Shown in pieces: positions 1 through 19,458 of a DNA stretch of 21,099 bases. The notes under the pieces were generated by a model. It saw only the letters and a list, made by a program, of their open reading frames with translations. It was not told the origin of the DNA and searched no databases. The position numbers were made by a program, and so were the translations under genes. The stretch spans positions 1 to 21,099 of the forward strand of contig NEEC01000447.1 of NCBI GenBank assembly GCA_002189035.1. The letters run 5' to 3'. Position 1 is the stretch's first letter, and each line of letters begins with the position of its first letter. Source of the stretch: Utricularia gibba (Eukaryota > Streptophyta > Magnoliopsida > Lamiales > Lentibulariaceae).

Positions 1-87
1 CCCATGGGTCATGCAAACTGTAATACCCAGAATTTCATCGGGTTGGGTCCGAACCTGAATGGATCCAACCCAGGCCCATCTCTAATC
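1..87 (+). other. Junction module left of the foldback (copy 1)
   Basis: GGGTTGGG, an NcoI-type ccatgg (2-7) and the single BamHI site ggatcc (61-66) lie in this stretch, ending ctctaatc at the foldback terminus. It continues the GGGTT/AACCC-rich tail of the preceding unit without a visible boundary, so the two probably form one module of about 160 bp. Confidence 0.65.
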
Positions 88-187
88 ATAATCATATGAT
101 ATAGGTTTATTAAATTATAAATAATTGAAATACATTATTTATTAAACCGTAGGATAACTGTGAAAGCTTCTTTGACTTAATTATTAC

Positions 188-549
188 CATTTGATCCTCA
201 GTTGTACTTTGGATGGAGTGTGTATTTTTACTTTAGTCAATTTAATTAGCATTCGATCCTTGGTTATGATTCAGATCATATTTGCTATTTTTTTACTTTA
301 AATATTTTTATTATCATTCGATCCTTAAGTATAATGCGGATCGAGCGCGTTTTTTTATTTTAATATTTTTTATTAGCATTCGACGTTAGGTATGCTGCGG
401 ATCGAGCGTATATTTTTCACTCTCATATTTTTATTAGCCTTAGATCCTTAGGTATACTTTGGATCGAGTGCATATTCATTTATTTTAAATCTTAATTAGC
501 GTTCCACCGTTAGGAGCAATTTAGAACGTGTATACATTACAATGCCATG
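188..549 (+). repeat. Six ~62-bp direct subrepeats, left arm of foldback (copy 1)
   Basis: Subrepeats begin at 188, 250, 315, 377, 438 and 500, a spacing of 61-65 bp. The loose consensus is cattcgatccttaggtat, then a few bases, ggatcgagtg, and a T-rich tract ending in attag. The fourth starts cattcgac in this copy, and the sixth is the most diverged (ggatcgag replaced by tagaacg). The left arm holds one more subrepeat than the right; the third and fourth both resemble the single partner at about 697-758, so one probably arose by local duplication. Confidence 0.88.
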
Positions 550-550
550 C

Positions 551-588
551 CACACGGGCGTGGTTTACGCACAACCCACGCCCGTGTG
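551..588. repeat. GC-rich apical hairpin at the foldback centre (copy 1)
   Basis: cacacgggcgtgg plus tt (551-565) is complementary to aacccacgcccgtgtg (573-588), with one extra C on the right side and the loop tacgcac (566-572). The stem is strongly GC-rich inside an otherwise AT-rich foldback. The equivalent in copy 2 is 2866-2903. It is intact in all nine complete copies except copy 8, which has lost one stem G near 16711. Confidence 0.92.
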
Positions 589-882
589 CCCTTGCAATGT
601 AAACACGCTCCACATTGCTCCTAAGGATCGAGCGTTAACACAAGTTTCAAGTAAACCATCTCCACTCGATCCGAATCATGTCTAAAGACCGAAAGCCAAT
701 AAAAATATTAAAATAAAAAATATACGCTCGATCCGCATCATATCTTAGAATCGAATGCAAATAGAATCGTTCAAATAAAAAATATACACTCGATTGGAAT
801 CTTAACCAAGGATCGAATGCTAATTAAAATGATTAAAATAAAAATGCACACTCCATCCAAAGTATAACTAAGGGTCGAATGC
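589..882 (-). repeat. Five ~62-bp subrepeats in reverse orientation, right arm of foldback (copy 1)
   Basis: Reading the minus strand, subrepeats start at about 882, 820, 758, 696 and 634, a spacing of about 62 bp, each with the gcattcgatcc...ggatcgag pattern. By sequence, the outermost pairs with left subrepeat 1, the next with 2, the third with 3 or 4, the fourth with 5 and the innermost with 6. The missing sixth partner explains why the right arm (about 412 bp) is shorter than the left (about 478 bp). Confidence 0.86.
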
Positions 883-984
883 TAATAAAATTAAAAACTA
901 AGAAACTTTCACATGTAGTATATGCTTTAATAACTAACGTATTTACATTATTTATATTTTAATAAACATATATCACATGATTAT

Positions 985-1257
985 AAAATATTTTTTTTGT
1001 CATTGTAGAAAGCTCATCACGCCACGCACACCACCCTGGAGAGGTTTCAACAGCTGTTATGAACTCACAACCCTTGCTCAGCAGATTCAGTAAAATTCTC
1101 TAACACTTGGGCTTCCAACGGATCATATCCCATATTCATTCATACGAAATTGTGCAAGAATAATGTGACTTTGAGTTTGAACTAGATAGTAGGACGCTGA
1201 TCGAAGAATGGCCCATCGAGTCTCTAAAATTGGCCGTCCTCGCTCAACAAATGTGGG
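985..1257. other. Spacer without internal repeats (copy 1), no gene recognised
   Basis: Begins with an A/T run (aaaatatttttttt) next to the foldback terminus, then about 260 bp of mixed composition. I find no open frame conserved across the copies, no inverted repeat, no tRNA-like boxes, and no similarity to the ~62-bp or ~150-bp repeats. It is among the best conserved parts of the unit, which makes it the best hybridisation landmark. The equivalent stretch is present in all nine complete copies. Confidence 0.8.
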
Positions 1258-2107
1258 GTGCACGTGACATCCCAATTTCAACAAATGCATCATGATTTTC
1301 GTCGAGTGGGCCCATGAGCCCGTCCGAACCCGGGGCCGGGCCAAGGGCCCCTCGAGAGCGCCCGCCTCAATACGAGGAGGTGTTCCTTCAAAAACCATAT
1401 ACGCGTCTCGTCACAACCCAACGTTAATAAATGCATCACTTTTTTTGGCGCGCTACTGCTGACTTTGGGCCTGAGTTCGGCACGACCTCCGGCTCGATCA
1501 GGGTGCCCCACCGAGAGCTCCTTAAGTATAAAGTGTGTTGTTGAAAAAAAACCGTGTGCGGTTCTCGTGACATCCTAACTTCAACAAATGCATCACGATT
1601 TTCGTCGAGTCGGACGGGACCGGGCTCCCGGGGCCCGGACGAGGCGCAGCGCCCGCTCCCCTCCCCCCCAAAACTAGAAGGTGTTCCATGGAAAACCATT
1701 TAGGCGGCTCGTGACAACCCAAAGTTAATAAATGCATCACTTTCTTTGCCGGGCTACAATGACTTTACGCTCGAGCCTGGTACGACGTATGGGAAGATTC
1801 GAGTGCCCCCCGAGAGCGTCTCCACAAGTATAAAGCGTGTTGTTGAAAAAACCGTGTTGGGTGCACGTGACATCCTAATTTCAACAAATGTGTCACGATT
1901 TTCGCCGAGTGGGACCAGAGTGGGCTCATCAGCCAGACCGAACCCGGGGCCCAAGCCAAGGGCCCCTCGAGAGCGCCCCCCCACAAAACTAGATGGTGTT
2001 CCACGAAAAAAAATTAGGCGGCTCGTGATAACCCAACGCTAAGAAATGCATCCCTTTTTTCGCCGGGCTAAAACTGACTTTGGGCTCATGCCCGGCGCGA
2101 CCCCCAG
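1258..2107 (+). repeat. GC-rich nested subrepeat block: ~150-bp a/b monomers forming ~300-bp dimers (copy 1)
   Basis: Six monomers can be anchored on the cgtgac/cgtcac core at 1263 (a1), 1409 (b1), 1566 (a2), 1710 (b2), 1866 (a3) and 2023 (b3). Spacings are 146, 157, 144, 156 and 157, so a-to-a distance is 303 then 300. The a type reads cgtgacatcc, then ttcaacaaatgcatca, then gattttcg. The b type reads cgt(g/c)acaaccc, then gttaataaatgcatcac, then a T-rich tract. Later in each monomer come a gagagc motif and a purine-rich end. The b2 and b1 monomers end aagtataaag-gtgttgttgaaaaa. The third dimer stops early: b3 diverges at about 2108. No protein is encoded. Confidence 0.88.
1652..1669 (-). 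other. C-rich run, possible G-quadruplex on the minus strand (copy 1)
   Basis: cccgctcccctccccccc reads on the minus strand as a 7-G run, a 4-G run and a 3-G run separated by 1 and 3 bases. The 7-G run can supply two tracts, giving a quadruplex-capable pattern. It recurs in monomer a2 of every complete copy with varying run lengths. Formation in vivo is not shown. Confidence 0.5.
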
Positions 2108-2197
2108 CCCGTGTGCATACGCAGCAGCACCACGAGGCCACATGGGCTTGGTTAATGCCCGCGTGCTCGAGCAGCAGCCACAAGGCCATACGGCCGT
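2108..2197 (+). repeat. Diverged 50-bp direct duplication in the unit tail (copy 1)
   Basis: cccgtgtgcatacgcagcag at 2108 and cccgcgtgctcgagcagcag at 2158 start two related segments that both continue with cca(c), ag(g)cca and a catgggc or catacggcc motif. The second ends in the palindrome ggccatacggcc type sequence. The duplication abuts the point where the third ~300-bp dimer breaks off. Confidence 0.72.
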
Positions 2198-2329
2198 GGA
2201 AAAAAAGAAAAACAACCATAAAATACAATAAGCCAAAAATAAAAAATAAAATTGATAAACCCTTGGTTCGGTTCGGGCCCAATCAAAACCCGTAGGGTTT
2301 AACCCGTTCGGGTTGAACAGAAAGACAAC
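2198..2329 (+). other. A-rich tract and GGGTT/AACCC-rich unit junction (copy 1)
   Basis: An A-rich tract (about 2198-2262) is followed by ggttcggttcggg, a telobox-like tagggttt (2293-2300), gggtttaaccc and gttcgggttgaac. It runs into the GGGTTGGG and cccaggcccatctctaatc sequences of the next unit. Such motifs are common in plant intergenic repeats. No transcription unit can be assigned. Confidence 0.65.
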
Positions 2330-2416
2330 CCCATGGGTCATGCAAACTGTAATACCCAGAATTTCATCGGGTTGGGTCCGAACCTGAATGGATCCAACCC
2401 AGGCCCATCTCTAATC

Positions 2417-3299
2417 ATAATCATATGATATAGGTTTATTAAATTATAAATAATTGAAATACATTATTTATTAAACCGTAGGATAACTGTGAAAGCTTCT
2501 TTGACTTAATTATTACCATTTGATCCTCAGTTGTACTTTGGATGGAGTGTGTATTTTTACTTTAGTCAATTTAATTAGCATTCGATCCTTGGTTATGATT
2601 CAGATCATATTTGCTATTTTTTTACTTTAAATATTTTTATTATCATTCGATCCTTAAGTATAATGCGGATCGAGCGCGTATTTTTTATTAGCATTCGAAC
2701 GTTAGGTATGCTGCGGATCGAGCGTATATTTTCACTCTCATATTTTTATTAGCCTTAGATCCTTAGGTATACTTTGGATCGAGTGCATATTCATTTATTT
2801 TAAATCTTAATTAGCGTTCCACCGTTAGGAGCAATTTAGAACGTGTATACATTACAATGCCATGCCACACGGGCGTGGTTTACGCACAACCCACGCCCGT
2901 GTGCCCTTGCAATGTAAACACGCTCCACATTGCTCCTAAGGATCGAGCGTTAACACAAGTTTCAAGTAAACCATCTCCACTCGATCCGAATCATGTCTAA
3001 AGACCGAAAGCCAATAAAAATATTAAAATAAAAAATATACGCTCGATCCGCATCATATCTTAGAATCGAATGCAAATAGAATCGTTCAAATAAAAAATAT
3101 ACACTCGATTGGAATCTTAACCAAGGATCGAATGCTAATTAAAATGATTAAAATAAAAATGCACACTCCATCCAAAGTATAACTAAGGGTCGAATGCTAA
3201 TAAAATTAAAAACTAAGAAACTTTCACATGTAGTATATGCTTTAATAACTAACGTATTTACATTATTTATATTTTAATAAACATATATCACATGATTAT
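2417..3299. repeat. Foldback element, copy 2 (883 bp)
   Basis: Same termini as in copy 1. It carries the 15-bp deletion between left subrepeats 3 and 4, leaving a single attttttatt. Confidence 0.87.
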
Positions 3300-3574
3300 A
3301 AAAATATTTTTTTTGTCATTGTAGAAAGCTCATCACGCCACGCACACCACCCTGGAGAGGTTTCAACAGCTGTTATGAACTCACAACCCCTTGCTCAGCA
3401 GATTCAGTAAAATTCTCTAACACTTGGGCTTCCAACGGATCATATCCCATATTCATTCATACGAAATTGTGCAAGAATAATGTGACTTTGAGTTTGAACT
3501 AGATAGTAGGACGCTGATCGAAGAATGGCCCATCGAGTCTCTAAAATTGGCCGTCCTCGCTCAACAAATGTGGG

Positions 3575-4424
3575 GTGCACGTGACATCCCAATTTCAACA
3601 AATGCATCATGATTTTCGTCGAGTGGGCCCATGAGCCCGTCCGAACCCGGGGCCCGGGCCAAGGGCCCCTCGAGAGCGCCCGCCTCAATACGAGGAGGTG
3701 TTCCTTCAAAAACCATATACGCGTCTCGTCACAACCCAACGTTAATAAATGCATCACTTTTTTTGGCGCGCTACTGCTGACTTTGGGCCTGAGTTCGGCA
3801 CGACCTCCGGCTCGATCAGGGTGCCCCACCGAGAGCTCCTCCTTAAGTATAAAGTGTGTTGTTGAAAAAAACCGTGTGCGGTTCTCGTGACATCCTAACT
3901 TCAACAAATGCATCACGATTTTCGTCGAGTCGGACGGGACCGGGCTCCCGGGGGCCGGACGAGGCGCAGCGCCCGCTCCCTCCCCCCAAAACTAGAAGGT
4001 GTTCCATGGAAAACCATTTAGGCGGCTCGTGACAACCCAAAGTTAATAAATGCATCACTTTCTTTGCCGGGCTACAATGACTTTACGCTCGAGCCTGGTA
4101 CGACGTATGGGAAGATTCGAGTGCCCCCCGAGAGCGTCTCCACAAGTATAAAGCGTGTTGTTGAAAAAACCGTGTTGGGTGCACGTGACATCCTAATTTC
4201 AACAAATGTGTCACGATTTTCGCCGAGTGGGACCAGAGTGGGCTCATCAGCCAGACCGAACCCGGGCCCAAGCCAAGGGCCCCTCGAGAGCGCCCCCCCA
4301 CAAAACTAGATGGTGTTCCACGAAAAAAAATTAGGCGGCTCGTGATAACCCAACGCTAAGAAATGCATCCCTTTTTTCGCCGGGCTAAAACTGACTTTGG
4401 GCTCATGCCCGGCGCGACCCCCAG
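3575..4424 (+). repeat. ~300-bp dimer block, copy 2
   Basis: Six monomers in the same order. In a2 the CG-rich core reads cccgggggccggac near 3948, against cccggggcccggac in most copies. Confidence 0.86.
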
Positions 4425-4731
4425 CCGTGTGCATACGCAGCAGCACACGAGGCCACATGGGCTTGGTTAATGCCCGCGTGCTCGAGCAGCAGCCACAAGG
4501 CCATACGGCCGTGGAAAAAAAGAAAAACAACCATAAAATACAATAAGCCAAAAATAAAAAATAAAATTGATAAACCCTTGGTTCGGTTCGGGCCCAATCA
4601 AAACCCGTAGGGTTTAACCCGTTCGGGTTGAACAGAAAGACAACCCCATGGGTCATGCAAACTGTAATACCCAGAATTTCATCGGGTTGGGTCCGAACCT
4701 GAATGGATCCAACCCAGGCCCATCTCTAATC

Positions 4732-5614
4732 ATAATCATATGATATAGGTTTATTAAATTATAAATAATTGAAATACATTATTTATTAAACCGTAGGATA
4801 ACTGTGAAAGCTTCTTTGACTTAATTATTACCATTTGATCCTCAGTTGTACTTTGGATGGAGTGTGTATTTTTACTTTAGTCAATTTAATTAGCATTCGA
4901 TCCTTGGTTATGATTCAGATCATATTTGCTATTTTTTTACTTTAAATATTTTTATTATCATTCGATCCTTAAGTATAATGCGGATCGAGCGCGTATTTTT
5001 TATTTTAGCATTCGAACGTTAGGTATGCTGCGGATCGAGCGTATATTTTTCACTCTCATATTTTTATAGCCTTAGATCCTTAGGTATACTTTGGATCGAG
5101 TGCATATTCATTTATTTTAAATCTTAATTAGCGTTCCACCGTTAGGAGCAATTTAGAACGTGTATACATTACAATGCCATGCCACACGGGCGTGGTTTAC
5201 GCACAACCCACGCCCGTGTGCCCTTGCAATGTAAACACGCTCCACATTGCTCCTAAGGATCGAGCGTTAACACAAGTTTCAAGTAAACCATCTCCACTCG
5301 ATCCGAATCATGTCTAAAGACCGAAAGCCAATAAAAATATTAAAATAAAAAATATACGCTCGATCCGCATCATATCTTAGAATCGAATGCAAATAGAATC
5401 GTTCAAATAAAAAATATACACTCGATTGGAATCTTAACCAAGGATCGAATGCTAATTAAAATGATTAAAATAAAAATGCACTCCATCCAAAGTATAACTA
5501 AGGGTCGAATGCTAATAAAATTAAAAACTAAGAAACTTTCACATGTAGTATATGCTTTAATAACTAACGTATTTACATTATTTATATTTTAATAAACATA
5601 TATCACATGATTAT
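4732..5614. repeat. Foldback element, copy 3 (883 bp)
   Basis: Carries the 13-bp deletion between left subrepeats 3 and 4, reading tattttttattttagc near 4994. A 2-bp loss in tgcacactcc occurs near 5478. Confidence 0.87.
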
Positions 5615-7005: not shown

Positions 7006-7879
7006 ATAATCATATGATATAGGTTTATTAAATTATAAATAATTGAAATACATTATTTATTAAACCGTAGGATAACTGTGAAAGCTTCTTTGACTTAATT
7101 ATTACCATTTGATCCTCAGTTGTACTTTGGATGGAGTGTGTATTTTTACTTTCAATTTAATTAGCATTCGATCCTTGGTTATGATTCAGATCATATTTGC
7201 TATTTTTTTACTTTAAATATTTTTTCATTCGATCCTTAAGTATAATGCGGATCGAGCGCGTATTTTTTATTTTAGCATTCGAACGTTAGGTATGCTGCGG
7301 ATCGAGCGTATTTTTTCACTCTCATATTTTTATTAGCCTTAGATCCTTAGGTATACTTTGGATCGAGTGCATATTCATTTATTTTAAATCTTAATTAGCG
7401 TTCCACCGTTAGGAGCAATTTAGAACGTGTATACATTACAATGCCATGCCACACGGGCGTGGTTTACGCACAACCCACGCCCGTGTGCCCTTGCAATGTA
7501 AACGCTCCACATTGCTCCTAAGGATCGAGCGTTAACACAAGTTTCAAGTAAACCATCTCCACTCGATCCGAATCATGTCTAAAGACCGAAAGCCAATAAA
7601 AATATTAAAATAAAAAATATACGCTCGATCCGCATCATATCTTAGAATCGAATGCAAATAGAATCGTTCAAATAAAAAATATACACTCGATTGGAATCTT
7701 AACCAAGGATCGAATGCTAATTAAAATGATTAAAATAAAAATGCACACTCCATCCAAAGTATAACTAAGGGTCGAATGCTAATAAAATTAAAAACTAAGA
7801 AACTTTCACATGTAGTATGCTTTAATAACTAACGTATTTACATTATTTATATTTTAATAAACATATATCACATGATTAT
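7006..7879. repeat. Foldback element, copy 4 (874 bp, shortest complete one)
   Basis: Carries the same 13-bp deletion as copies 3 and 5, plus private losses near 7153, 7223, 7503 and 7818 (tagtatgc for tagtatatgc). Confidence 0.87.
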
Positions 7880-9301: not shown

Positions 9302-10184
9302 ATAATCATATGATATAGGTTTATTAAATTATAATAATTGAAATACATTATTTATTAAACCGTAGGATAACTGTGAAAGCTTCTTTGACTTAATTATTAC
9401 CATTTGATCCTCAGTTGTACTTTGGATGGAGTGTGTATTTTTACTTTAGTCAATTTAATTAGCATTCGATCCTTGGTTATGATTCAGATCATATTTGCTA
9501 TTTTTTTACTTTAAATATTTTATTATCATTCGATCCTTAAGTATAATGCGGATCGAGCGCGTATTTTTTATTTTAGCATTCGAACGTTAGGTATGCTGCG
9601 GATCGAGCGTATATTTTTCACTCTCATATTTTTATTAGCCTTAGATCCTTAGGTATACTTTGGATCGAGTGCATATTCATTTATTTTAAATCTTAATTAG
9701 CGTTCCACCGTTAGGAGCAATTTAGAACGTGTATACATTACAATGCCATGCCACACGGGCGTGGTTTACGCACAACCCACGCCCGTGTGCCCTTGCAATG
9801 TAAACACGCTCCACATTGCTCCTAAGGATCGAGCGTTAACACAAGTTTCAAGTAAACCATCTCCACTCGATCCGAATCATGTCTAAAGACCGAAAGCCAA
9901 TAAAAATATTAAAATAAAAATATACGCTCGATCCGCATCATATCTTAGAATCGAATGCAAATAGAATCGTTCAAATAAAAAATATACACTCGATTGGAAT
10001 CTTAACCAAGGATCGAATGCTAATTAAAATGATTAAAATAAAAATGCACACTCCATCCAAAGTATAACTAAGGGTCGAATGCTAATAAAATTAAAAACTA
10101 AGAAACTTTCACATGTAGTATATGCTTTAATAACTAACGTATTTACATTATTTATATTTTAATAAACATATATCACATGATTAT
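9302..10184. repeat. Foldback element, copy 5 (883 bp)
   Basis: The last copy with the 13-bp deletion between left subrepeats 3 and 4. An A is lost in attataaataattg near 9333. Confidence 0.87.
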
Positions 10185-11608: not shown

Positions 11609-12507
11609 ATAATCATATGATATAGGTTTATTAAATTATAAATAATTGAAATACATTATTTATTAAACCGTAGGATAACTGTGAAAGCTTCTTTGACTTA
11701 ATTATTACCATTTGATCCTCAGTTGTACTTTGGATGGAGTGTGTATTTTTACTTTAGTCAATTTAATTAGCATTCGATCCTTGGTTATGATTCAGATCAT
11801 ATTTGCTATTTTTTTACTTTAAATATTTTTATTATCATTCGATCCTTAAGTATAATGCGGATCGAGCGCGTATTTTTTATTTTAATATTTTTTATTAGCA
11901 TTCGAACGTTAGGTATGCTGCGGATCGAGCGTATATTTTTCACTCTCATATTTTTATTAGCCTTAGATCCTTAGGTATACTTTGGATCGAGTGCATATTC
12001 ATTTATTTTAAATCTTAATTAGCGTTCCACCCGTTAGGAGCAATTTAGAACGTGTATACATTACAATGCCATGCCACACGGGCGTGGTTTACGCACAACC
12101 CACGCCCGTGTGCCCTTGCAATGTAAACACGCTCCACATTGCTCCTAAGGATCGAGCGTTAACACAAGTTTCAAGTAAACCATCTCCACTCGATCCGAAT
12201 CATGTCTAAAGACCGAAAGCCAATAAAAATATTAAAATAAAAAATATACGCTCGATCCGCATCATATCTTAGAATCGAATGCAAATAGAATCGTTCAAAT
12301 AAAAAATATACACTCGATTGGAATCTTAACCAAGGATCGAATGCTAATTAAAATGATTAAAATAAAAATGCACACTCCATCCAAAGTAAACTAAGGGTCG
12401 AATGCTAATAAAATTAAAAACTAAGAAACTTTCACATGTAGTATATGCTTTAATAACTAACGTATTTACATTATTTATATTTTAATAAACATATATCACA
12501 TGATTAT
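11609..12507. repeat. Foldback element, copy 6 (899 bp)
   Basis: Long form, with both attttttatt repeats present between left subrepeats 3 and 4. It loses two bases in aaagtataactaagg near 12387. Confidence 0.87.
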
Positions 12508-13924: not shown

Positions 13925-14820
13925 ATAATCATATGATATAGGTTTATTAAATTATAAATAATTGAAATACATTATTTATTAAACCGTAGGATAAACTGTG
14001 AAAGCTTCTTTGACTTAATTACCATTTGATCCTCAGTTGTACTTTGGATGGAGTGTGTATTTTTACTTTAGTCAATTTAATTAGCATTCGATCCTTGGTT
14101 ATGATTCAGATCATATTTGCTATTTTTTTACTTTAAATATTTTTATTATCATTCGATCCTTAAGTATAATGCGGATCGAGCGCGTATTTTTTATTTTAAT
14201 ATTTTTTATTAGCATTCGAACGTTAGGTATGCTGCGGATCGAGCGTATATTTTTCACTCTCATATTTTTATTAGCCTTAGATCCTTAGGTATACTTTGGA
14301 TCGAGTGCATATTCATTTATTTTAAATCTTAATTAGCGTTCCACCGTTAGGAGCAATTTAGAACGTGTATACATTACAATGCCATGCCACACGGGCGTGG
14401 TTTACGCACAACCCACGCCCGTGTGCCCTTGCAATGTAAACACGCTCCACATTGCTCCTAAGGATCGAGCGTTAACACAAGTTTCAAGTAAACCATCTCC
14501 ACTCGATCCGAATCATGTCTAAAGACCGAAAGCCAATAAAAATATTAAAATAAAAAATATACGCTCGATCCGCATCATATCTTAGAATCGAATGCAAATA
14601 GAATCGTTCAAATAAAAAATATACACTCGATTGGAATCTTAACCAAGGATCGAATGCTAATTAAAATGATTAAAATAAAAATGCACACTCCATCCAAAGT
14701 ATAACTAAGGGTCGAATGCTAATAAAATTAAAAACTAAGAAACTTTCACATGTAGTATATGCTTTAATAACTAACGTATTTACATTATTTATATTTAATA
14801 AACATATATCACATGATTAT
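13925..14820. repeat. Foldback element, copy 7 (896 bp)
   Basis: Long form. A T is lost near 14795 (atatttaataaac), which opens a chance frame at 14716-14898. Confidence 0.87.
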
Positions 14821-16252: not shown

Positions 16253-17140
16253 ATCATATGATATAGGTTTATTAAATTATAAATAATTGAAATATTATTT
16301 ATTAAACCGTAGGATAACTGTGAAAGCTTCTTTGACTTAATTTACCATTTGATCCTCAGTTGTACTTTGGATGGAGTGTGTATTTTTACTTTAGTCAATT
16401 TAATTAGCATTCGATCCTTGGTTATGATTCAGATCATATTTGCTATTTTTTTACTTTAAATATTTTTATTATCATTCGATCCTTAAGTATAATGCGGATC
16501 GAGCGCGTATTTTTTATTTTAATATTTTTTATTAGCATTCGAACGTTAGGTATGCTGCGGATCGAGCGTATATTTTTCACTCTCATATTTTTATTAGCCT
16601 TAGATCCTTAGGTATACTTTGGATCGAGTGCATATTCATTTATTTTAAATCTTAGCGTTCCACCGTTAGGAGCAATTTAGAACGTGTATACATTACAATG
16701 CCATGCCACACGGCGTGGTTTACGCACAACCCACGCCCGTGTGCCCTTGCAATGTAAACACGCTCCACATTGCTCCTAAGGATCGAGCGTTAACACAAGT
16801 TTCAAGTAAACCATCTCCACTCGATCCGAATCATGTCTAAAGACCGAAAGCCAATAAAAATATTAAAATAAAAAATATACGCTCGATCCGCATCATATCT
16901 TAGAATCGAATGCAAATAGAATCGTTCAAATAAAAAATATACACTCGATTGGAATCTTAACCAAGGATCGAATGCTAATTAAAATGATTAAAATAAAAAT
17001 GCACACTCCATCCAAAGTATAACTAAGGGTCGAATGCTAATAAAATTAAAAACTAAGAAACTTTCACATGTAGTATATGCTTTAATAACTAACGTATTTT
17101 ACATTATTTATATTTTAATAAACATATATCACATGATTAT
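16253..17140. repeat. Foldback element, copy 8 (888 bp)
   Basis: Long form. The left terminus is shortened by three bases (atcatatgat instead of ataatcatatgat), and there are losses near 16293, 16342 and 16653 and in the apical stem near 16711. Confidence 0.86.
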
Positions 17141-18562: not shown

Positions 18563-19458
18563 ATAATCATATGATATAGGTTTATTAAATTATAAATAAT
18601 TGAAATACATTATTATTAAACCGTAGGATAACTGTGAAAGCTTCTTTGACTTAATTATTACCATTGATCCTCAGTTGTACTTTGGATGGAGTGTGTATTT
18701 TTACTTTAGTCAATTTAATTAGCATTCGATCCTTGGTTATGATTCAGATCATATTTGCTATTTTTTTACTTTAAATATTTTTATTATCATTCGATCCTTA
18801 AGTATATATGCGGATCGAGCGCGTATTTTTATTTTAATATTTTTTATTAGCATTCGAACGTTAGGTATGCTGCGGATCGAGCGTATATTTTTCACTCTCA
18901 TATTTTTATTAGCCTTAGATCCTTAGGTATACTTTGGATCGAGTGCATATTCATTTATTTTAAATCTTAATTAGCGTTCCACCGTTAGGAGCAATTTAGA
19001 ACGTGTATACATTACAATGCCATGCCACACGGGCGTGGTTTACGCACAACCCACGCCCGTGTGCCCTTGCAATGTAAACACGCTCCACATTGCTCCTAAG
19101 GATCGAGCGTTAACACAAGTTTCAAGTAAACCATCTCCACTCGATCCGAATCATGTCTAAAGACCGAAAGCCAATAAAAATATTAAAAAAAAAATATACG
19201 CTCGATCCGCATCATATCTTAGAATCGAATGCAAATAGAATCGTTCAAATAAAAAATATACACTCGATTGGAATCTTAACCAAGGATCGAATGCTAATTA
19301 AAATGATTAAAATAAAAATGCACACTCCATCCAAAGTATAACTAAGGGTCGAATGCTAATAAAATTAAAAACTAAGAAACTTTCACATGTAGTATATGCT
19401 TTAATAACTAACGTATTTACATTATTTATATTTTAATAAACATATATCACATGATTAT
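18563..19458. repeat. Foldback element, copy 9 (896 bp)
   Basis: Long form. Small changes near 18613, 18665, 18805 and 19185-19194. The A run at the last site opens a chance plus-strand frame at 19153-19341. Confidence 0.87.

Follow-up and report, generated by a model that had tools for sequence, protein, structure and literature searches.

A palindrome probably derived from a Mutator-like family in the unit of a composite Utricularia gibba satellite

How did an inverted repeat of about 0.9 kb come to stand at the same place in every unit of a tandem array in Utricularia gibba, and does its symmetry do anything there? The window considered here, the whole stretch of 21,099 nucleotides (contig C256), is a tandem array in which nine full units, each 2274-2329 bp long, are joined by a partial one, and long head-to-tail arrays of such a near-identical unit are satellite DNA. 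A sequence-only reading had proposed that a foldback transposon was captured here as a fixed part of the unit, amplified in tandem rather than dispersed, and that its read-through transcripts could feed small-RNA silencing of the array. We followed these proposals through 100.09 Mb of genome sequence in 516 contigs.

The satellite unit and its array

Aligning the left half of each foldback with the reverse complement of its right half recovers the inverted repeat in all nine full units, over 269-359 aligned bp at 81.0-84.0% identity and with 10-15 gaps. Unit 1 scores 319, whereas 200 resamplings from a first-order Markov model average 23.4 (sd 3.1) and never exceed 36. As first described, then, every full unit carries an inverted repeat of ~0.9 kb with arms of ~62-bp subrepeats, and long inverted repeats made up of direct subrepeats are the anatomy of foldback transposons. 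The features of the window are the following, with the limits in units 2 to 9 taken from the half-against-half alignment.

88..984, no strand: foldback (inverted repeat) of unit 1; homology to dispersed arms reaches ~1006 on the right
2417..3299, no strand: foldback of unit 2
4732..5614, no strand: foldback of unit 3
7006..7879, no strand: foldback of unit 4
9302..10184, no strand: foldback of unit 5
11609..12507, no strand: foldback of unit 6
13925..14820, no strand: foldback of unit 7
16253..17140, no strand: foldback of unit 8
18563..19458, no strand: foldback of unit 9
181..488, plus strand: left-arm 62-bp direct subrepeats, 4.9 copies (TRF)
663..891, minus strand: right-arm 62-bp direct subrepeats, 3.7 copies (TRF)
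549..590, no strand: central GC-rich near-palindrome, the proposed hinge (217 pattern matches; motif positions in 16 loci)
1002..1231, minus strand: decayed DDE_Tnp_4-related transposase fragment (86% DNA identity to locus L033)
1252..2102, plus strand: GC-rich repeats of ~300 bp, 2.8 copies (TRF; relatives in loci L028 and L034)
2235..2414, no strand: segment spanning the unit junction, like dispersed sequence in locus L036 (74.6% over 181 columns)

In all nine units TRF reports the right-arm subrepeats at 62 bp; the left-arm row has a period of 62-63 bp in units 1, 6, 7, 8 and 9, and of 48-50 bp in the other four, where gaps shorten the subrepeats. The position of the foldback within the unit is indeed fixed, as had been claimed, and two details of that claim required correction: the arms are unequal, with about one subrepeat more on the left, and homology to dispersed relatives ends at ~85-88 on the left and extends to ~1006 on the right. 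Since the units are near-identical copies, this constant place is not evidence of selection, and a fixed position is the expected outcome of recent amplification. Across the nine units the 897 bp of the foldback (88-984) contain 0 substitutions and 26 indel sites, and positions 1252-2331 differ by substitutions in 24 columns and by indels at 50 sites, differences of which a part may reflect residual sequencing error.

The array is not confined to the window. A 42-base pattern from the centre of the foldback, with up to 3 mismatches, matches 217 places in the genome (150 forward, 67 reverse; control 0), and the first 100 of these, those listed, are on C150, C183, C196, C209, C210, C211, C215, C217, C219, C252 and C253; a DNA search with 88-984 finds foldback sequence on C257 likewise. 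On C402, a contig of 2,629,907 bp, the array begins at 2605372 and extends to the contig end in the two stretches read (2605372-2616000 and 2628400-2629907). Its edge units match the window unit at ~97-98% identity, and additional hairpin copies lie between the arms in the two closest to the edge. These contigs also bear on whether the array might be an artefact of assembly. The array contigs C256, C209, C150 and C257 are only 21-42 kb long, the ends that were read (both of C150, the start of C209 and the end of C257, with matches over 250 bp) are array sequence, and the leftover indels resemble long-read errors. However, the array meets non-array sequence at C402:2605372, within a contig of 2.63 Mb, and the edge units there are ~97% alike and differ in the loop, so that an artefact appears extremely improbable.

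The array edge on C402 adjoins ORFs with matches to the integrase zinc-binding domains PF17921 and PF09337, with rve just below the cut-off. These integrase-type ORFs lie in L037:1-5372 (C402:2600000-2605371), and over 330 columns L037 matches sequence to the right of the L028 foldback at 84% identity. In Rfam, positions 1-5000 of the window have no match at the gathering threshold.

The rest of the unit brings together further repeats. The DDE_Tnp_4 fragment is one that we take to be of PIF/Harbinger type. At L033 one ORF passes the PF13359 cut-off (1.5e-7) and two neighbours remain below it, including the homologue of the window ORF; the window's own ORF (1002-1231) has no PF13359 match and in one stretch agrees with L033 at 23 of 26 residues. 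The transposase piece at L033 flanks a MULE arm on its outer side, the same arrangement as in the array, and relatives of the 1252-2102 repeats, ~78% identical, adjoin arms in L028 and L034. The segment across the unit junction (2235-2414) is presumably hAT-like, judging by its end motif. These comparisons show a composite unit, and several of the repeats that compose it are already together at other loci. L034 (positions 1-2638; C460:84300-86937) also holds a 315-bp GC-rich tandem array of at least 8.6 copies with 93% matches, ~70% like 1252-2102.

Dispersed relatives and a Mutator-like family

Because array copies score best and mask all others, dispersed relatives were sought with patterns designed to mismatch the array. 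The direct DNA search with 88-984 (best 40 of 303 candidates) placed all 80 matches listed on array contigs and is uninformative on dispersal. The first array-mismatching pattern gave 212 matches, the only non-array places among the 100 listed being C2:2159747 and two on C4. Outside the array, an outer-arm pattern matches 25 places, 11 on the forward and 14 on the reverse strand, with none in the control, one subrepeat pattern 14 places and a second one 9, at partly overlapping loci. A pattern across the junction of arm and hairpin matches 10 places, and 8 of the 10 are four head-to-head pairs, located by pattern search at:

C1:5416787 and 5416920
C2:3690823 and 3690946
C413:1951442 and 1951806
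C451:4457937 and 4458179

All of these dispersed counts are lower bounds, since the number of mismatches was limited. A motif search in 16 loci also finds clusters of the central near-palindrome at dispersed loci. Dispersed copies, as foldback transposons have, are present in the genome, and the contrast drawn earlier between tandem amplification and dispersal has to be abandoned: foldback sequence is both.

Where the dispersed arms have a recognizable end, they belong to a transposon family. A common left boundary, which begins with GGGGTG or a close variant, marks the copies at L015, L016, L017, L018, L029, L030 and L031; behind it come a subterminal sequence of ~700 bp, an arm and, after the arm, hairpins. 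L020 has this subterminal sequence but not the GGGGTG-type end. A left-terminus pattern (up to 3 mismatches) finds 10 places, and at 2 of the 10 left ends, on C1 and C2, a PF10551 match lies ~4.1 kb inward on the opposite strand (among the best 150 of 240 candidates). One member has both family ends and transposase domains:

C1:3322133-3328982, 6.85 kb: Mutator-like member (L039 and L041)

This C1 copy is flanked by a perfect 10-bp repeat, CTGAAAATTC, and its terminal inverted repeat is imperfect (18/26), as is that of L030 (17/26). ORFs in L039 match PF10551 (MULE, 2.6e-10) and PF03108 (DBD_Tnp_Mut, 8.3e-9) above the cut-off, with PF00872 (Transposase_mut) and a zinc knuckle below it; the putative transposase ORFs are fragmented. 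Mutator-like elements make target-site duplications of ~9-11 bp. Perfect duplications of 9-10 bp flank 4 of the 8 left-end copies examined (L030, L018, L031 and the C1 copy), and in the arm-bearing L030, L031 and L018 the repeats are at the ends or within ~1 base of them. The other four (L015, L016, L017 and the C2 copy, L029+L040+L042) lack a perfect 9-10-bp duplication of their own, L017 having an 8/9 repeat within a T-run in its flanks. With target duplications of this length and MULE/MuDR domains in the C1 copy and its relatives, the arm is, on comparison of these copies, a subterminal module of a Mutator-like family. The suspicion of a mobile origin is borne out in this form: the array has dispersed relatives, and its arms come from a family in which half of the eight left-end copies examined have target duplications.

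Two details of these copies merit separate mention. L015 (C4:1959124) and L016 (C4:1967032), on the same strand and 7.9 kb apart, have crosswise flanking repeats, the right flank of L015 equalling the left flank of L016 (10/10) and the left flank of L015 resembling the right flank of L016 (9/10), which suggests a rearrangement between both copies. Inside the transposase-coding MULE, at L039:1087-1508, hairpin-motif copies are spaced ~101 bp apart or at multiples of this.

Inverted arms are found at 7 dispersed loci (L013, L014, L019, L028, L043, L044 and L045). The motif search places the hairpin motif between the arms in 5 of the 7; it finds none in L014 or L019, and in L019 a degenerate hairpin is visible on reading the sequence. 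At L044 one arm leads outward to the MULE left end; beyond the hairpin cluster is the start of another arm, in inverted orientation, which is then cut off. L028 has both arms, with an insertion of ~0.9 kb flanked by a 5-bp repeat inside its hairpin cluster. At L021:2260-2616 (C413) the palindrome is inside out, with hairpin motifs outside and 62-bp parts central. In L013, L014 and L019 the inverted arms are inside a different type of element, which starts with TAAGGCCTCGTTTGTTAGG (TAA-GGCC) or one base off and which we assume to be Harbinger-like, so that the module is not exclusive to a single family. Copies of this second family (L013:686, L014:125, L019:1297) are ~90% identical over several kb, their palindromes have the 62-bp arms nested within another inverted repeat, and L019 has a PF04195 match.

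If the foldback were a whole transposon, a foldback MULE inserted in a pre-existing satellite unit and then co-amplified, its anatomy and its MULE kinship would be accounted for, and foldback MULEs are already known from elsewhere (PMC4486113 and PMC3169594, in the text available for them). The array copy, however, has no MULE termini, its homology limits of ~88 and ~1006 being well within the element and unlike each other on the two sides. It has no flanking direct repeat of 5 bp or more and no target duplication, and none of the 9 window units is without the foldback. We consider such an insertion unlikely. The proposal that a foldback element was captured must be qualified accordingly, the more so as other modules of the unit also adjoin arms (L028, L033, L034). 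The search that the sequence-only reading had suggested, for dispersed copies with target-site duplications, thus succeeded for the copies themselves, and no duplication was found around the two-armed form either at the array copy or at L044.

Age, origin and possible roles of the palindrome

The history of the palindrome can be read from the divergence of its arms. We compared the array arms, from window unit 1 and from 8 C402 copies (4 left, 4 right), with 12 dispersed arms. Against 9 of the 12 dispersed arms the right arm of the array reaches 86.4-91.1% identity; the values for L017, L033 and L029 are 81.2%, 70.0% and 67.5%, the last two loci being only partly homologous over the stretch. 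With the left arm of the array its identity is 79.5%. When window unit 1 is set against the C402 copies, identity is 98-100% for left arms and 91-100% for right arms, and the lowest value (91%) comes from a C402 edge unit with a deletion. Because the arms are far more diverged from each other than the same arm is between units, the palindrome must predate the amplification by far; the same comparison led us to reject a fresh inverted duplication. Homogenisation, as these alignments have it, proceeds between units and not between arms, and frequent cruciform-based conversion would predict the opposite. In the arm tree the left-arm branch is long (0.34) and the two array arms are joined with a support of 0.75, so that both may, but need not, come from one event.

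We consider it probable that the foldback is a truncated, Mutator-derived palindrome that was amplified with a composite satellite unit and is carried in it as a passenger. Its arm would be the left subterminal module of a MULE, consisting of an AT-rich outer stretch, the multiplied 62-bp subrepeats and the GC-rich near-palindromic hairpin. Two left modules may have been placed head-to-head with the hairpin as the hinge, and since the two strands of the hairpin are almost the same in sequence, recombination or template switching at this point would be a likely cause. The palindrome would have formed long before the satellite arose; more recently the foldback, the GC-rich tandem repeat and the DDE-transposase fragment, together at one locus, would have been amplified as a 2.3-kb unit, through unequal exchange or rolling-circle reinsertion. 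Having no MULE ends, the array foldback would be immobile by itself, and it is most likely a passenger without function. Several observations count against the truncated palindrome as explanation: the array copy lacks ends and any flanking repeat of 5 bp or more, 4 of the 8 left-end copies examined lack a duplication, 3 of 12 dispersed arms are less alike, inverted arms are found in a second type of element too, the support joining the two array arms is 0.75, and the motif search finds no hairpin in L014. The missing target duplication at L044 counts against it too, as it leaves movement of a two-armed foldback as a unit without support.

The predicted RNA fold of the foldback has -367 kcal/mol on the plus strand and -401 kcal/mol on the minus strand (z -27 and -40), 0 of 20 shuffles being as good on either strand, and the plus-strand fold contains uninterrupted helices of 31, 26 and 22 bp. 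That a read-through transcript would be a long hairpin, as had been proposed, is therefore possible in silico. If the palindrome acted in this way, with the RNA feeding small-RNA silencing of the array, the folding strength on both strands and the long helices would be understandable, but the arms have drifted to ~80% identity, which implies that perfect pairing is not maintained. U. gibba also has a truncated DCL3, and 24-nt RNAs make up 14.4% of its small-RNA reads (PMC8333044, from the portion available), so that 24-nt silencing should be weak, with 21-22-nt routes still possible. Three Dicer_dimer matches in the genome fit the published DCL3 without that domain and do not prove it. On this balance a role in silencing seems doubtful.

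A second possible role for the dyad symmetry is that it marks or aids a centromere or pericentromere as a cruciform-prone satellite. The array lies at the end of a large contig and adjoins integrase ORFs, and satellites rich in dyads have been proposed to be important at (peri)centromeres (PMC13081366, as far as its available text goes); on the other hand, the arms are not homogenised with each other, and this role appears rather improbable. In a more elaborate version, a young, homogeneous 2.3-kb satellite made from Mutator ends and other repeats would help, through the dyad of its unit, to found a new (peri)centromeric domain, which we hold to be very unlikely. Whatever the role of its symmetry, the satellite bears on the printed description of putative centromeric regions of U. 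gibba as being without satellite repeats (PMC8333044, in the same portion).

Significance and comparison with known systems

Transposon ends are already known as a source of satellites; here a whole two-armed MULE palindrome is kept in each unit. One small genome displays a coding MULE, one-armed relatives, two-armed foldbacks, loci where the modules adjoin, a diverged array edge and a homogenised core, and with all stages in one genome the route from transposon end to satellite can be tested one stage at a time. Set against each other, the arm-to-arm identity of 79.5% and the same-arm identity of 91-100%, moreover, give a clean measure of homogenisation between units and not across the palindrome. 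In titles and abstract openings of the literature on U. gibba repeats and small RNAs, on foldback and MULE satellites and on dyad satellites, we found no account of this satellite.

The nearest precedent among the systems considered is Tetris/TIR-220 of Drosophila virilis (PMC4079207), which according to the text available is also of the foldback type, with a suggested Mutator kinship, a link to a satellite, target duplications of 8-10 bp and subrepeats within its arms. In Tetris, however, an arm subrepeat became the satellite monomer, whereas in U. gibba each monomer, long and composite, contains the whole two-armed palindrome once, and the 62-bp subrepeat does not serve as monomer. MuTAnT of Medicago and, as cited there, FARE of Arabidopsis (PMC4486113, in part) share the Mutator kinship and the long modular inverted repeats of foldback elements; MuTAnT is described as comprising 218 related elements, in contrast to the end-less, tandemly amplified array copy of U. 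gibba. The Tm1 Mutator/foldback elements of root-knot nematodes (PMC3169594), likened here by description and not by sequence, have inverted repeats that are composite and vary in length, target duplications of 9 bp, relatives that encode transposase and a group with a (histone) hairpin motif; they differ in their host, and their abstract mentions no satellite. The macro-dyad satellites of Tribolium (PMC13081366, again from the text available) resemble the U. gibba array in that large hairpins or cruciforms can form in satellite regions, but their symmetry relates one array to another across tens of kb, whereas in U. gibba it is inside each unit.
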